Source of the DNA: an uncultured Prevotellaceae bacterium
GTDB taxonomy: Bacteria > Bacteroidota > Bacteroidia > Bacteroidales > Bacteroidaceae
NCBI GenBank assembly: GCA_945865175.1
Contig: CAMBDA010000011.1
Span: 1 to 64,000, forward strand
DNA: 64,000 nucleotides
Reading direction: 5' to 3'
Position numbers and translations under genes: made by a program. The notes beneath the pieces are model-generated. The model was given only the letters and a program-made list of their open reading frames with translations, was not told where the DNA came from and searched no databases. The number at the start of each line of letters is the position of its first letter. Within the stretch, counting starts at the first letter, position 1. Below, piece by piece: positions 3,663-57,811 of this stretch.

Positions 3663-6314
3663 CTAACGGTTCAGGTCGAAATATTTCTTTATCAACAAGC
3701 CATCGGTGGGTGAATCAGATGTGATATAGTCGGCTCCCCGGCTCATGACATCCACCATACCAGCATAATCGCTCACTGTCCACACATTCACAGTGAGGCC
3801 CTCGTCATGGGCCTGCTGGTACCATTCCGGGTGGGCATTCATGACTGAATAGCTGTAATCAAGACCCGTATAGCCCATGCTCTTGAGTGCAGCAGGGCTG
3901 TAGTCACCATTCAGATAAGCGACCTTGGCCTCGGGGTCCAGAGAAATAATCTGCCTGCAGGCCACACCGCTGAACGAGATGTATTCCACCCTGTCCTTCA
4001 CGCCATATTCCTCCACCTTCCTCAGTACATACTTGGCCGCATTGCGGTTGCGCAGGTCGGTGGAATGCTTCTTTATCTCAATAATGAGTTTGGTGGGGCT
4101 GTCGCTGTCCTTGAGCAACTGTAGCAGGTCATCCAGGCGGGGCATCTTTTCACCATTGGAGAGGGTGAGATTTTTGCAGTCGGCATACTTGGAGTCCTGG
4201 ATGGTGACACCGCTGTAGCTGGCATCGTGGTTGACCATAATCTGGTTGTCAGTAGTAAGCCACACATCCGTTTCGGAGCCGTAGGCACCGATGGCCTGTG
4301 CTGCCTGTAAGGAGGCACGGGAGTTCTGACTGGCGCCCTGCGCCTTCCAATAGCCACGATGGGCAATAATCTGGGACGATGCTGGCAGTGCATCCACCAT
4401 CGTGAACGACACGGTTCCCAACCGCTGGACAACGCCACCGCGCAAGAGCGACATTGTGTAGCGGTCGGTTTCCAGCGCCTCGGGCAACAGCACAGTGGCT
4501 CCGTCATCGGCTAGTGCAAGCGGAACCTCAAACGTGCGACCAGAGGCATTGGCCGTAAACTGAACCACATCACCCTGGGCAAAACCTGAACCCATAATAG
4601 GGAATACAGCCCCCACCCTGGCAGGCACAGCCTGAGGGTAGGCCACATCGGTAACCAGTTTGTCCGACTTCACCACCTGCGGACGTGCATGCAGCCACAT
4701 CTGTTCCACCTGCTCAGCAGAGGATGGGGTGCTGTAGATACGGAACATCACCACATCGCCGGGAATCTGTTGGTTGCAGCCGCCATCACCCGAGGGGTCA
4801 CCAAAGATGGCAAAGAAATGGTTGCGGGTGTCGCTTCCGGGCTTGGTGAGTCCATTGGGAGCATCGGCCGTAGCCTTCAGTTCACCGTTCACGTACAGAT
4901 GCACCTTGGCCGCATCGCGGTCATATACGCCCACCATATGGTAGTACGCTCCCCCACTCCAACCGGCATATTTGGTCCAGCGATAGGCATTGCCCGTATG
5001 AGGAAGATAGGCCAACTGACCGTCTGTCGACACCATGAAGCCGCCAGGGCCGCCACCCTGATGGGAAGAAATCCACTTGGCTTCCGTACCGGCCACAATC
5101 TCCGGTGTCATCACCACAGCCTCCATCGTGTAGCCATCGGCCAGCTGCTGCCAGAAGTTGTCATCTCCTGCATAGTCCACCCGATAATGCCCCTTTCCGG
5201 AATCGTTCCACGAAGCGTCCGAGTGGGCCACGTAACGGCCATATTGCGGGAGCCAATAGGTATAGAGCGTACTGTTGGGGTAACAGTCTACCTTACGATG
5301 GGCAGGCGAGACGTCCGTGGCCGTACCATCGGCATGGAACACCACGTCGAGCAGGTCGGCCTCCTGCCCCTGCACAGGATGGGCTGCCTCGCTGAGCACA
5401 CGGGCCTCATAGGCATTGACAGCTGTGTCATAGATACGGAACGTGACCACTTCGCCCGGGAGCTGCTGCTGGCAACCCCCATTCTGCGGATCACCGAAGA
5501 TAGCAAAGAAATGGTTCTTGGAGTCGCTGGTAGGCTTGGTGAGCTCGCCAGGAGCCTCGGCTACGGAACGCAATTCGCCATCCACATACAGGTAAGCCTT
5601 GCCTGCATCGTGGTCATAAACCCCCACCACATGATAATAGACACCAGTTTCCCAGTCGGTCTTTGTCCAGCGATAGTCACCTGTATGGGGCAGGAAGGAC
5701 AGCTTACCGTCACCCGACACCATAATGGCACCCGGGCCTCCACCCTGATGGGAGCCTATCCACTTGGCCTCCGTGTTTTGTTTGTCGGTCGACATCACGA
5801 TGGCTTCCATCGTATAGCCGTCGGCCAGTTTCTGCCAAAAAGCATCATTGCCGGCATAGCTGATGCGATAGTGGCCCTTGTCCTTGTCGTTCCAAGCACA
5901 GGTGGACCGGGCCACATAGCGCCCATAGGTTGCGTTCCAGTAGGTGGAAAGCGTGGCATCGGGATAGTGCTCCACTTTCATCTGGCTGGCCGAAACATCG
6001 GCTGCCGTACCGTCGGCATGGAACACCACATCCAGGATTCCATCGGTGCGCATGGCCGGAGTGCGGAACGACAGGCTGTCCACATCCCCCATGGGCGACT
6101 CATAAAGTGTAGCACCCTCTTTGTCGAGGATGGTGAGGCGCGAATGGCCCTCGGCAACCTGCACATCATCCACTGCTGTCACCTCCTGGGCATATACAAT
6201 ACGTCCGCCCTTGTATACGTACATCATTTCACTATCAGCCGCAGCCGGCATTGCTCCACCTATTAATAATAAGGTATAGAGTGTCCAATTCCTGAAAGTA
6301 TGAAATCTTTTCAT
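3663..6314 (-). CDS. Secreted twin-LamG glycerophosphodiester phosphodiesterase
   Basis: The 883-residue protein has a signal peptide (about 1-26, ending PAAA). Two similar LamG/concanavalin-like modules sit at about 85-300 and 325-545; both carry DVVFHADGTA, MEA(I/V)VM and NHFFAIFGDP. A short TIG/Ig-like segment is near 565-645, and the C-terminal GDPD domain starts near 649. The GDPD signature is visible: AHRGYW, then SETDVWL and NHDAS, covering the expected acid and histidine positions. GDPDs hydrolyse glycerophosphodiesters to glycerol-3-phosphate and an alcohol; the LamG pair may tether it to glycan or surface. No C-terminal sorting domain was seen. It lies 7 bp after the 160-residue gene and is probably co-transcribed with it. 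Confidence 0.85.
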   Translation of the reverse strand: MKRFHTFRNWTLYTLLLIGGAMPAAADSEMMYVYKGGRIVYAQEVTAVDDVQVAEGHSRLTILDKEGATLYESPMGDVDSLSFRTPAMRTDGILDVVFHADGTAADVSASQMKVEHYPDATLSTYWNATYGRYVARSTCAWNDKDKGHYRISYAGNDAFWQKLADGYTMEAIVMSTDKQNTEAKWIGSHQGGGPGAIMVSGDGKLSFLPHTGDYRWTKTDWETGVYYHVVGVYDHDAGKAYLYVDGELRSVAEAPGELTKPTSDSKNHFFAIFGDPQNGGCQQQLPGEVVTFRIYDTAVNAYEARVLSEAAHPVQGQEADLLDVVFHADGTATDVSPAHRKVDCYPNSTLYTYWLPQYGRYVAHSDASWNDSGKGHYRVDYAGDDNFWQQLADGYTMEAVVMTPEIVAGTEAKWISSHQGGGPGGFMVSTDGQLAYLPHTGNAYRWTKYAGWSGGAYYHMVGVYDRDAAKVHLYVNGELKATADAPNGLTKPGSDTRNHFFAIFGDPSGDGGCNQQIPGDVVMFRIYSTPSSAEQVEQMWLHARPQVVKSDKLVTDVAYPQAVPARVGAVFPIMGSGFAQGDVVQFTANASGRTFEVPLALADDGATVLLPEALETDRYTMSLLRGGVVQRLGTVSFTMVDALPASSQIIAHRGYWKAQGASQNSRASLQAAQAIGAYGSETDVWLTTDNQIMVNHDASYSGVTIQDSKYADCKNLTLSNGEKMPRLDDLLQLLKDSDSPTKLIIEIKKHSTDLRNRNAAKYVLRKVEEYGVKDRVEYISFSGVACRQIISLDPEAKVAYLNGDYSPAALKSMGYTGLDYSYSVMNAHPEWYQQAHDEGLTVNVWTVSDYAGMVDVMSRGADYITSDSPTDGLLIKKYFDLNR

Positions 6315-54115: not shown

Positions 54116-55312
54116 ATGAAAATACTTGTACTGAACTGCGGAAGTTCATCCATCAAATACGCGCTCTACGACATGGACGACAAGCGCGTGATTACCAGCG
54201 GCGGTATCGAAAAGATTGGTCTGCCCGATTCATTCCTCAAACTGAAGTACAACGGACAGAAGATCCAGATTGACCGTCCCATCGAGGAACACACTGCAGG
54301 CGTGCAGTTTATCTTCGAAGTGCTCACTACAGGCGAATACGCCGTGCTTGAGAGCCTCGACGAACTGGATGCCGTAGGCCACCGCATGGTACATGGCGGG
54401 GAGAAGTTCAACCAGAGCGTACTGCTTACTCCCGAAGTCATGACCGTATTTGAGGCCTGCAACGACCTGGCCCCCCTCCACAACCCGGCCAACATCAAGG
54501 GTGTGAACGCCGTAAAGGCATTGCTTCCCGACATTCCCCAGGTGGGCGTGTTCGACACCGCCTTCCACCAGACAATGCCCGACTATGCCTACATGTATGC
54601 CCTCCCCTACGACCTCTACCAGCAGTACGGCGTGCGACGCTACGGTTTCCACGGCACCAGCCACCGCTACGTGAGCCAGCGTGTATGTGAATACCTTGGC
54701 ATCAAGCCCGAAGGCACACGTATCATCACCTGCCACATTGGCAATGGAGCATCCATTGCCGCTGTCAAGGATGGCCGCTGTGTGGACACGAGCATGGGAC
54801 TCACTCCCCTCGAAGGTCTCATCATGGGTACCCGCTGTGGCGACATTGATGCAGGAGCCGTCACCTTCCTGATGGACAAGCTGGGCCTCGACACCAAGCA
54901 ACTCAGCGCCCTGCTCAACAAGCAGAGCGGTCTGGCCGGTATCAGCCAGCTGTCGAGCGACTTCCGCGACATTCTCGCAGGCATTGCGCAAGGCAACGAC
55001 AAGGCCCGTTTGGCCAAGGAGATGTACACCTACCGCATCAAGAAGTACATCGGCCAATATGCTGCCGCCATGGGCGGCGTGGACATAATCCTCTTCACCG
55101 GCGGCGCCGGGGAGAACCAGTGGGAAGTGCGCGAAGGTGCCACCACAGGACTGGAATTCATGGGCGTAAAGCTCGATGATGCCAAGAACCGCTCCTGCCG
55201 TGCCACAGAAGCCATCATCAGTGCCGATGACAGTTCCGTGAAGGTGTGCGTCATCCCCACCGACGAGGAGTTGATGATTGCCCTCGACACCGAGTCGCTC
55301 TGCACACGCTGA
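54116..55312 (+). CDS. ackA: Acetate kinase
   Basis: The 398-residue ASKHA-fold kinase starts MKILVLNCGSSSIKYALYDM. It has VFDTAFHQTMPDYAYMYALP, YGFHGTSHRYVS, ITCHIGNGASIAAVKDG, DTSMGLTPLEGLIMGTR and FTGGAGENQ, all diagnostic. It transfers the acetyl phosphate phosphoryl group to ADP, giving acetate and ATP. It is the second gene of the pta-ackA pair and ends before a strong bidirectional hairpin. Confidence 0.96.
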   Translation: MKILVLNCGSSSIKYALYDMDDKRVITSGGIEKIGLPDSFLKLKYNGQKIQIDRPIEEHTAGVQFIFEVLTTGEYAVLESLDELDAVGHRMVHGGEKFNQSVLLTPEVMTVFEACNDLAPLHNPANIKGVNAVKALLPDIPQVGVFDTAFHQTMPDYAYMYALPYDLYQQYGVRRYGFHGTSHRYVSQRVCEYLGIKPEGTRIITCHIGNGASIAAVKDGRCVDTSMGLTPLEGLIMGTRCGDIDAGAVTFLMDKLGLDTKQLSALLNKQSGLAGISQLSSDFRDILAGIAQGNDKARLAKEMYTYRIKKYIGQYAAAMGGVDIILFTGGAGENQWEVREGATTGLEFMGVKLDDAKNRSCRATEAIISADDSSVKVCVIPTDEELMIALDTESLCTR

Positions 55313-55332
55313 CAAACAAAAAGAGGCTCTAT

Positions 55333-55412
55333 CCAAAAAAAACACAGGAGGCTACCACCCATGGACAGTGATAGCCTCCTGTGTTCTCTCTCTCTATATA
55401 TTATTGTATAGG
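55333..55412 (-). ncRNA. Candidate small RNA behind ackA
   Basis: On the minus strand a -7 box (TAACTTTG) stands at 55419-55426 with a TTG about 21 nt upstream. About 27 nt after the expected start comes a perfect 14-bp hairpin (55341-55385) followed by a U-run (A8 on the plus strand at 55335-55342). No protein-coding gene lies between. Together they predict an RNA of about 80 nt, convergent with and not overlapping the ackA coding sequence. This is structural inference only. Confidence 0.45.
55341..55385. terminator. Bidirectional terminator hairpin after ackA
   Basis: AACACAGGAGGCTA (55341-55354) pairs perfectly with its complement (55372-55385) around a 17-nt loop. On the minus strand a U-run follows, which makes it a good intrinsic terminator in that direction. 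On the plus strand the 3' side is only moderately T-rich. Confidence 0.8.
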
Positions 55413-55418
55413 CGAATG

Positions 55419-55450
55419 CAAAGTTAAAGGATTTTTTTTTGGAATAACAA
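55419..55450 (-). promoter_or_regulatory. Orphan minus-strand promoter (TTG ... TAACTTTG)
   Basis: The -7 box TAACTTTG lies at 55419-55426 and TTG at 55448-55450, 21 nt apart, facing the ackA terminator. No gene follows on that strand, so it points to a short untranslated RNA. Confidence 0.45.
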
Positions 55451-55460
55451 CATCATTTTA

Positions 55461-55706
55461 CTGAATAATTGTAACAAGACTCCCAAAAAGGCCACCCAAG
55501 GCCTGCATTTTGATGTTTTCTGGCATGGATTCAACCTGTACGACTTTCTGAATCTGCCCGAAGGCCAATGGCTCTAGATTACCCGAAACCGAAGCCCAGA
55601 GGGCGACATTTCGCCACAGTTGGAGCTCTTCCAGCAAAAAGAGGGGGCCAATTTCGAGAATTACAAGACCAAAGCCTATTTACAGGCAGTTAACCAACAG
55701 AATTAA
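55461..55706 (+). pseudogene. Degenerate ORF with internal stop, unrecognised
   Basis: A plus frame reads through FDVFWHGFNLYDFLNLPEG, hits TAG at 55575-55577 and continues in the same frame (SPEGDISPQLELFQQKEG ... YLQAVNQQN) to TAA at 55704-55706. The residue composition and frame retention suggest a former gene now broken. No family was recognised. It lies between the candidate RNA and the repeat region of the accessory patch. Confidence 0.4.
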
Positions 55707-55753
55707 TCAAATCCCGATTTTATCGGACAGCAATCGTTCTCAACATACTCCAC

Positions 55754-55804
55754 AAAGTATCTAAACATACTTTGCCATTTATCTTTAGATACTTTGCCAT
55801 TTAT
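55754..55804. repeat. Overlapping direct and inverted repeats
   Basis: ATACTTTGCCATTTAT occurs at 55767-55782 and 55789-55804 (22-bp period). AAAGTATCTAAA (55754-55765) and TTTAGATACTTT (55784-55795) form an inverted repeat. A third ATACTTT lies just downstream at 55811. The block sits about 130 bp upstream of the Rpn gene promoter. Confidence 0.6.
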
Positions 55805-55936
55805 GTTGACATACTTTTTTTTGAGGATGTTATGTCCCCGCATGGAAGAACGGGTATGTGCTTGTTTGTTGGTACAATCCTTTGAAATTCCATGCTTAAT
55901 TCCTGCCAGAGATTTGGTGGTTTCAGATTTTCATTG

Positions 55937-55944: not shown

Positions 55945-55974
55945 CCGCAGAAGAACAATTAAAGATGCAATGTG

Positions 55975-56880
55975 ATGGCAGCCACTGAAGAACGATACAT
56001 TAGTTTGCTCACCGACTTCGGTTTCAAACGCATATTCGGAACAGCACCCAACAAGGACCTGCTGATAAACTTCCTGAACAGCCTGTTCGACGGCAAGCAG
56101 GTGATTAAGAACATCATGCATCTGAACAGCGAGCATTTGGGGGACAGGTCTTCTGCACGCAAGGCAATCTTCGATGTCTATTGCGAGGCGGAAAACGGTG
56201 AGAAGTTCATCGTTGAGATGCAGAACGCCTTCCAGGAGTTCTTCAAGGACCGGGCACTCTATTATTCCACGTTCCCCATACGCGAACAGGCTAAGAAGGG
56301 CTCGGAATGGGACTTCAGCCTCACTCACATCTACACCATTGCATTGCTGAATTTCGACATGCACGATGAAGCCTTTGATGCCGACAAAATATGCCATACA
56401 GTCAAGTTGTGCGACATTGAGACCAACAGGGTGTTCTATCACAAGCTGGACTTTATATACGTGGAGATCTCCAAGTTCAACAAGACGGAAAACGAGCTGG
56501 ACACACTCTATGACAAGTGGCTCTATGTGCTCAAGAACCTTTCGAGGCTGGAGAAACGCCCCAAGGCATTGGTCGGCAAGGTGTTCGACCGTCTATTTGA
56601 GGAGGCCGAGATAGCGAAGTTCACCCCGGCGGAACTCAGGGAGTATGAGGACAGCCTCAAGGCCTATCGTGACATTAAGAATTCACTTGATACGGCTAAA
56701 AAAGAGGGACGTGCCGAAGGACGTGCCGAGGGGCGTGCTGAAGGACTTGCCGAAGGAAGAGTCGAAGGACGTACCGAAGGCATTATGTCAACTGCCAGGA
56801 ACCTAAAGCTGATGGGCCTTAGCGTTGCCGACATAATGAAGGCTACGGGGCTGTCGAAAGATGATGTCATGAAACTTTAG
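55975..56880 (+). CDS. Rpn family/PD-(D/E)XK nuclease (PDDEXK_2)
   Basis: The protein is 301 residues from the ATG at 55975. It has the typical start YISLLTDFGFKRIFGT, the nuclease core KAIFDVYCEAENGEKFIVEMQ (Asp, Glu-x-Gln), then YYSTFPIREQAKKG and a C-terminal coiled region of six GRAE-like repeats. It ends with a helix-turn-helix-like tail (LSVADIMKATGLSKDDVMKL). These proteins were long called transposases; E. coli RpnA acts as a recombination-promoting nuclease. It stands in an accessory patch, and an IS remnant starts at the base after its stop. Confidence 0.88.
   Translation: MAATEERYISLLTDFGFKRIFGTAPNKDLLINFLNSLFDGKQVIKNIMHLNSEHLGDRSSARKAIFDVYCEAENGEKFIVEMQNAFQEFFKDRALYYSTFPIREQAKKGSEWDFSLTHIYTIALLNFDMHDEAFDADKICHTVKLCDIETNRVFYHKLDFIYVEISKFNKTENELDTLYDKWLYVLKNLSRLEKRPKALVGKVFDRLFEEAEIAKFTPAELREYEDSLKAYRDIKNSLDTAKKEGRAEGRAEGRAEGLAEGRVEGRTEGIMSTARNLKLMGLSVADIMKATGLSKDDVMKL
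56704..56775 (+). repeat. 12-bp tandem repeat coding for EGRA units
   Basis: Six imperfect copies of GAAGGACGTGCC encode EGRA, EGRA, EGRA, EGLA, EGRV and EGRT. The repeat is in frame, so copy-number change would alter linker length without breaking the gene. Such repeats are usual in this family. Confidence 0.85.
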
Positions 56881-56946: not shown

Positions 56947-57642
56947 TTAACCTTGGCTTAGGATACTCTGAATATCGAAAAGCGGCTTGATCTTGCAGTG
57001 ATCAGGAGTCAGCAGCAGTGTCTGTTGCATTACAGTTCCGTTGTTTGGAAAGTTTATCCGCACTGTGGCAATAGTCTTGGCAATCCTCAATACAGAGTCG
57101 ACGCTGAGGTCAACTTTAGCAATACATATTATGCGTTCAAGTTCTTTGTAAACCTTGTATGCCATGAAGCAGATGCAGATGTGAGCCTCAATACGCTTCT
57201 CCGTGAAGTGGAAGATTGGACGTGCCTCAAGATTTCCCTTGGTCACACAAAAGGCCCGTTCCACCACCCATAGACCGTGATACTGGGTAACGACTTCTTT
57301 CGGCTTTAAATCCGTATTGGTTATGTATCCTTTCAAGACATTCCACTTTGCATCTTCCGCTATTTTGTCATCGCTGATAACAACATCAACATCTTTGCTG
57401 ATCTCAAGGAACTTGTTGTATCCTCGTTTGTTGACAGACGCTTTGGTAATCTTTCCGCTTGCGTATGACTTACGAAGCCTTGCAACGCCTTTTTCACGGT
57501 TGTGGGCATCCTTCTTTGCGTCTGCCTCGGAGTCACTTTTGGCTACTCCGAAGTTCTTTACTTCACGCAGCTTGCCGCTGCTCTTGTCCATGACGATGAT
57601 GCTGACATGGCCACTACGGTGTTTCTTCCTGTGTACAAACAT
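56947..57642 (-). pseudogene. IS1634-type transposase, in-frame deletion
   Basis: The product is 231 residues from the ATG at 57642. The N-terminal part (MFVHRKKHRSGHVSIIVMDK ... GVAKSDSE) resembles the family start. From about residue 46 the sequence jumps to the C-terminal part (DAHNREKGVARLRKSY ... TNTDLKPKEVV ... GLWVVERAFCVTKGNLE). About 300 residues of the usual middle, including the two catalytic aspartates, are missing, but the frame is kept. The Glu of the DDE set remains in VVERAF. The protein cannot be an active transposase by itself. Confidence 0.8.
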
Positions 57643-57646
57643 GGTG

Positions 57647-57654
57647 CAAAGATA
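57647..57654 (-). promoter_or_regulatory. -7 box (TATCTTTG) of the IS transposase
   Basis: The minus-strand TATCTTTG lies 4 bp before the ATG at 57642, inside the element. The shortened gene may thus still be expressed, with almost no leader. Confidence 0.5.
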
Positions 57655-57811
57655 CTGAAAATATGCCGTGCGCCACCCATTTTTAGAAAATATTTTCTGG
57701 AAATACCTAAAAATCAGCAACTAACAGTTTTGGATAGAAACGAGTGTCAAAGTCAGGAGGATTTTAAATGAAAAACGGGCTTATTTTTATTCTGAGGCTT
57801 AATTTATGCAA

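Follow-up and report, generated by a model that had tools for sequence, protein, structure and literature searches.

We asked whether the DNA behind the acetate kinase gene (ackA) of an uncultured Prevotellaceae bacterium encodes a small RNA on the opposite strand, where a promoter and a hairpin followed by a U run occur with no coding gene. The window (the whole stretch of DNA analysed, 64,000 nt) lies on contig 11 of a genome assembled to 2.99 Mb in 71 contigs. A sequence-only reading of the window had proposed a small RNA of about 80 nt at this position. We favour, with a probability of about 0.7, a lineage-specific orphan transcription unit that gives rise to a stable minus-strand RNA of ∼79 nt ending near ackA.

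Genomic setting

The ackA gene (54116–55312, plus strand; PF00871, E = 8.5e-154) is preceded by a folP-like gene, a gene for a CdaA-type diadenylate cyclase and pta, and is convergent to the predicted RNA. Judged by record titles, its closest relatives come from uncultured rumen and gut Bacteroidaceae/Prevotellaceae. Beyond the unit lie a coding remnant interrupted by one in-frame TAG (55482–55706, plus strand) and then a PDDEXK_2 transposase gene (55972–56880), assigned from Pfam.

Part of the remnant shares 73% identity with a stretch close to one end of contig 37 in this genome, which holds an open frame of 72 aa with no Pfam match over the 67 aa scanned. Imperfect inverted repeats of ∼30 nt, nested in one another and with TACTTTGCCATTTAT-like units, lie at 55740–55817, after the remnant and ahead of the PDDEXK_2 gene. 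On the minus strand, an open frame at 56947–57720 appears transposase-like by eye; it has no Pfam match at 1e-3 and is possibly degenerate.

A predicted minus-strand promoter and terminator behind ackA

The minus strand carries a −33 element, TTG (55448–55450), placed 21 nt upstream of a −7 box, TAACTTTG (55419–55426), which fits the consensus given for the primary sigma factor of Bacteroidales in an excerpt of PMC7366714. The 21-nt spacer includes a run of nine A, and spacer and box together resemble the promoter of a gene judged by eye to be ribosomal-protein-S12-like in two relatives (86% over 35 nt). Positioned from the box by the usual distance, the transcription start is predicted near 55413, giving an AU-rich leader (55387–55413) of ∼27 nt before the hairpin; the box itself is 33 nt from the perfect stem.

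The hairpin and minus-strand intrinsic terminator (55335–55391) are built around a perfect 14-bp core, AACACAGGAGGCTA/TAGCCTCCTGTGTT, with the loop at 55360–55366 and a terminal run of eight U (T8, 55335–55342). On the minus strand, G-U and further A-U pairs extend the stem to 25 contiguous pairs closed by a 7-nt loop, against 14+3 pairs on the plus strand, where the tail of the same DNA reads TTCTCTCTCTCTATA. At the foot of the stem a GAGAGAG tract pairs with the U run, and the last leader bases (55387–55391) can take part. The terminator score, for which we used a formula of the d'Aubenton-Carafa/Lesnik type, is +50.3 on the minus strand versus −12.2 on the plus strand. All the parts named by the sequence-only reading (TTG-N21-TAACTTTG, a leader of ∼27 nt, hairpin and U run on the strand opposite ackA) were thus found between 55450 and 55335; its perfect 14-bp hairpin is present within a longer minus-strand stem, and its view that the hairpin is optimised for the minus direction agrees with both the scores and the pair counts.

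The RNA predicted from promoter and terminator spans 79 nt (55335–55413, minus strand) and is calculated to fold at −41.4 kcal/mol into a 5-pair leader helix and the 25-pair stem. Its 3′ end would be separated from the ackA stop codon by 22 nt, and the perfect stem begins 28 nt behind that stop. The fold is non-random: a 101-nt stretch gives a folding z of −5.9, and none of 200 shuffles was equally stable. When the gap between ackA and the transposase gene was shuffled, a terminator score of at least 50 never arose (0/300), a score of at least 0 arose in 5/300, and the maximum was 26.1. The pattern TTG-N19-21-TAACTTTG appeared in 6 of 2000 shuffles of this gap and the looser TTG-N18-23-TANNTTTG in 211 of 2000.

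A genome-wide promoter census

TTG-N19-21-TAACTTTG occurs at 96 sites in the source genome, all of which were checked by script with their flanks, and the reversed pattern occurs at none. A scrambled box gives 2 genome sites and its own reversed control 3. Because of the contrast between 96 sites and 0, we consider a chance origin of the unit's promoter match unlikely. Spacing is 20 nt at 73 sites, 19 nt at 17 and 21 nt at 6; the last and rarest class includes the unit, and we estimate from the controls that its false share could approach one in ten.

An ATG frame opens within 100 nt downstream of 79 of the 96 sites, or 78 without the unit, whose only frame in that range runs antisense to ackA. 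A further 7 sites have a frame at 101–350 nt and 10 have none within 350 nt. This frame rule is crude, so that spurious frames may remain, and one site (L201) is counted in the first class though it holds a tRNA. Using Rfam on 18 census loci, together with ARAGORN, we could assign 7 of the 10 frameless sites to known RNA genes downstream of them: 6S, tmRNA and RNase P, and tRNAs at four sites. TTG-N20-TAACTTTG stands upstream of a 6S-type RNA (Bacteroidales-1, L131), tmRNA (L142) and RNase P RNA (L144), and the tRNAs are at L170, L185, L190, L208 and L201. The residual sites are L207 and two contig ends (L168 and L211). Cobalamin riboswitches were found at L133 and L191, and five sites with a frame only at 101–350 nt and no Rfam match (L171, L181, L203, L212 and L213) are also left over.

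By eye, the TTG-N20-TAACTTTG of L207 seems to lie antisense over the start of an opposite-strand gene. Five sites (L134, L147, L155, L167 and L171) share a near-identical promoter and leader, TTGCA-GGATGGAAA...CGTCGTAACTTTGCACCG..., which looks like a dispersed repeat family; at least one of the copies precedes what by eye is an HU-like DNA-binding protein.

At 4 of the 96 sites the 200 nt downstream contain a terminator scoring above 0, with the reservation that at L168, L190 and L211 fewer than 200 nt lie downstream and a terminator could be missed. Three of the four (L170, L185 and L201) are terminators behind tRNAs and the fourth is the unit, which far outscores the others (50.3 versus 20.2, 11.9 and 5.1). 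Across 178.5 kb there are 28 sites of the looser TTG-N18-23-TANNTTTG pattern, and such a terminator accompanies the unit alone; 5 of the 28 are orphans by a crude rule, so being an orphan is in itself nothing unusual for such a site. As the fellow sites with both promoter and terminator are those behind tRNAs, the unit would, by analogy, be an RNA gene. The promoter census and the strongest promoter-linked terminator together make a discrete minus-strand RNA of ∼79 nt likely.

Conservation among relatives

Our comparison of ackA flanks covered the 53 closest of 80 loci, the 27 more distant ones being omitted; 52 were usable, and one (L027) was too short. By eye, the DNA behind these 52 ackA genes varies from genome to genome. 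The minus-strand terminator score exceeds 0 in 11 flanks and the plus-strand score in 14. Only two of the 52 have a minus-strand TTG-N18-23-TANNTTTG within 300 nt. One of them, L025, carries a tRNA-Met gene (3832–3905, minus strand) behind ackA and heading towards it, with its own TTG-N20-TACCTTTG promoter. The other, L052, has TAAGTTTG at a spacing of 23 and, ahead of the ackA stop, a hairpin with a minus score of 7.8; it resembles the unit in weaker form, is unrelated to it in sequence, and may be a chance or a parallel case.

The hairpin was matched at E ≤ 0.01 in none of 138 other genomes of the genus, most of which are incomplete. This hairpin-only search scored all candidates in the listed genomes and left 112 genomes without a match; at E ≤ 0.1 it returned weak partial matches in six other genomes (best 0.025). 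Of the five that we inspected, L233 is a terminator whose GGAGGC stem is similar but which has no promoter; in the other four, neither such a hairpin nor such a promoter could be seen by eye. A 451-base query, for which at most four candidate places were scored per genome, was matched in 117 of 139 genus genomes (own included); outside the own genome its matches span the ackA end or short stretches of promoter or other sequence. Promoter plus leader matched 87 of the 139 genomes at E ≤ 0.1 (own included), mostly over the promoter, and the minority of matches inspected were promoters or undecided, with no copies of the unit among them.

No convincing homologue of hairpin or leader was seen elsewhere in the own genome, where the unit is single copy, or among 61 nearer and wider relatives (own included), and none was seen in viral contigs searched with the exact hairpin arms. 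Rfam gave no match at gathering score in the window, and the seven matches within 55250–55560 are all far below that score. The sequence-only reading had named conservation of promoter and hairpin in relatives as a check: behind ackA neither is conserved, so that the pattern it named as refuting, a conserved hairpin with a −7 box that is not, did not occur. Because hairpin and promoter are absent from the relatives searched and the ackA flanks differ, the unit is young or fast-changing.

Comparison with known RNAs

According to an excerpt of PMC7366714, 27 of the 49 high-confidence intergenic sRNAs of B. thetaiotaomicron are strain-specific, and by analogy with these the lineage-specific nature of the unit does not exclude an sRNA. 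The same excerpt reports that Northern blots detected 9 of 11 tested candidates. With the intergenic sRNAs of that species (e.g. GibS and MasB; excerpts of PMC7366714 and PMC10994844) the unit shares, as far as sequence predicts, an orphan promoter of the TAnnTTTG type, an intrinsic terminator, a length within 30–500 nt and an AU-rich 5′ part. The predicted RNA would thereby resemble the terminator-ended members of this group, in which a short, AU-rich and mostly single-stranded 5′ end is followed by a hairpin. It differs in being mostly terminator hairpin, and it is known here from sequence, compared through Rfam and related genomes. Its predicted length and fold lie within the limits for Bacteroidales intergenic sRNAs in the PMC7366714 excerpt (30–500 nt; energy per nt below −0.05), its 3′ end is predicted to be an intrinsic terminator (+50.3, T8 tail), and its TTG-N21-TAACTTTG sequence, a putative promoter of the sigma-ABfr type from which the start is predicted, has no coding gene found downstream on the minus strand.

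The 6S RNA Bacteroidales-1 (RF01693) has the same promoter type in the source genome, but its model spans 179 positions against 79 nt here, and the unit has no Rfam match. A bidirectional terminator between convergent genes would likewise place an inverted repeat close behind ackA, flanked on one side by an A run; the unit departs from this in having no opposite-strand gene that we could find, a weak U run in the ackA direction, and a promoter of its own.

Alternative explanations

The same DNA could be the remains of a lost minus-strand gene, for a protein or a tRNA, whose body was deleted while promoter, leader and terminator stayed behind, in which case the RNA is perhaps made and idle. We regard this as possible, though not probable. 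The leader resembles some mRNA leaders of the genus (TACTATAATATATAG abuts an ATG in L217, and TATACAATAATATA precedes a gene in L218), and in the relative L119 CATTCGC and AT-rich bases follow a TATCTTTG box. Among the 52 related flanks, L025 alone retains promoter, tRNA-Met and terminator facing ackA, L233 has its similar GGAGGC terminator elsewhere, and the unit is surrounded by debris (the coding remnant, the PDDEXK_2 transposase gene and the transposase-like frame). Yet no remnant of a gene body is visible between leader and hairpin, a clean deletion of the body alone would be a special event, and among the best few matches inspected no relative joins the leader to a whole gene. This explanation differs from the transcription unit that we favour mostly on function and origin, and overlaps with it in that the RNA is made; the confidences that we attach to the readings therefore do not sum to one. 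Leftovers of a lost gene and a promoter that landed beside a terminator would both give the same DNA.

It is unlikely that only an ackA terminator is real here and that the minus-strand promoter is a silent chance match. Relatives can indeed have a hairpin terminator behind the ackA stop, as the 14 flanks with positive plus-strand scores indicate, the distance of 28 nt from stop to perfect stem would suit one, and the looser promoter pattern arises in 211 of 2000 shuffles of the gap; the exact promoter pattern, by contrast, far outnumbers its reversed and scrambled controls, and the terminator scores point in the wrong direction for ackA. An invertible promoter or small mobile element is very improbable: a perfect 11-bp inverted repeat (55332–55342/55433–55443) encloses part of the unit, no such repeat arose when the 148-bp piece was shuffled 1000 times, and potential promoters are reported for 569 of 1,997 PhaseFinder inverted repeats of B. 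thetaiotaomicron (excerpt of PMC10994844), but inversion would disrupt the promoter, whose −33 TTG is not enclosed by the repeat, the repeat consists largely of an A run, such a repeat is present in 59 of 1000 whole-gap shuffles, and the sequence is single copy in the genome. Barely credible, finally, is a small protein read from a minus-strand ATG in the hairpin loop, where a frame of 110 codons begins that runs antisense to ackA (55362–55030) and has AGGAGG upstream; its first codons already contain the terminator, it has no Pfam match, and in the 280 nt leading up to the ackA stop the same antisense frame is interrupted by stops in 48 of 53 relatives.

Proposed mode of action and significance

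The sequence itself shows the elements, their non-random nature, their direction and their absence from the relatives searched, whereas transcription, the exact ends of the RNA and any function are inferred. On the favoured reading, a housekeeping-type promoter (TTG-N21-TAACTTTG) would start a minus-strand RNA near 55413, and polymerase would cover ∼27 nt before halting at a very strong intrinsic terminator, leaving a stable RNA of ∼79 nt. An ackA transcript reaching that far would carry the same inverted repeat at its 3′ end, which may help it to end there, and both transcripts would then converge on one shared hairpin. If the RNA acts, base pairing through the 5′ leader, its main unpaired part, would be the likeliest route. 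Since an ackA readthrough transcript would include sequence complementary to the entire RNA, the two might pair locally at the 3′ end of ackA.

A target scan of the leader against 249 start regions, covering part of the genome, gave a best value of −18.6, which 26 of 60 shuffled leaders reached. A 16-bp leader match around the start codon of a gene that by eye encodes a CobW-like GTPase (L216; −15.8 kcal/mol) is AU-rich and no better than chance. The ∼80-nt small RNA of the sequence-only reading is upheld, by the statistics and the census, as an orphan minus-strand unit with a terminator built for that direction; a regulatory role is no more than possible, as hairpin and promoter are not conserved behind ackA in relatives and no target stood out from the shuffles. 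That promoter and terminator, joined behind ackA, form a new regulatory RNA of this one lineage, a functional sRNA possibly linked to acetate, seems rather unlikely. The possible tie to acetate metabolism arises because the RNA would converge on the ackA 3′ end, and our literature search, whose single listed paper concerns Helicobacter, returned no report of an antisense RNA at a Bacteroides ackA.

As a candidate regulator the RNA would be ordinary in kind, and it is plausible as a further Bacteroidales sRNA. It would be very small, extending barely beyond promoter and terminator. In the source genome, false matches to TTG-N19-21-TAACTTTG are few, and the copies that lack a frame mostly mark RNA genes, so that a promoter census of this kind is a cheap route to RNA genes (6S, tmRNA, RNase P and tRNAs) in genomes without RNA data. 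If transcribed, the unit behind ackA would add one more species-specific sRNA candidate from the uncultured gut Bacteroidales.
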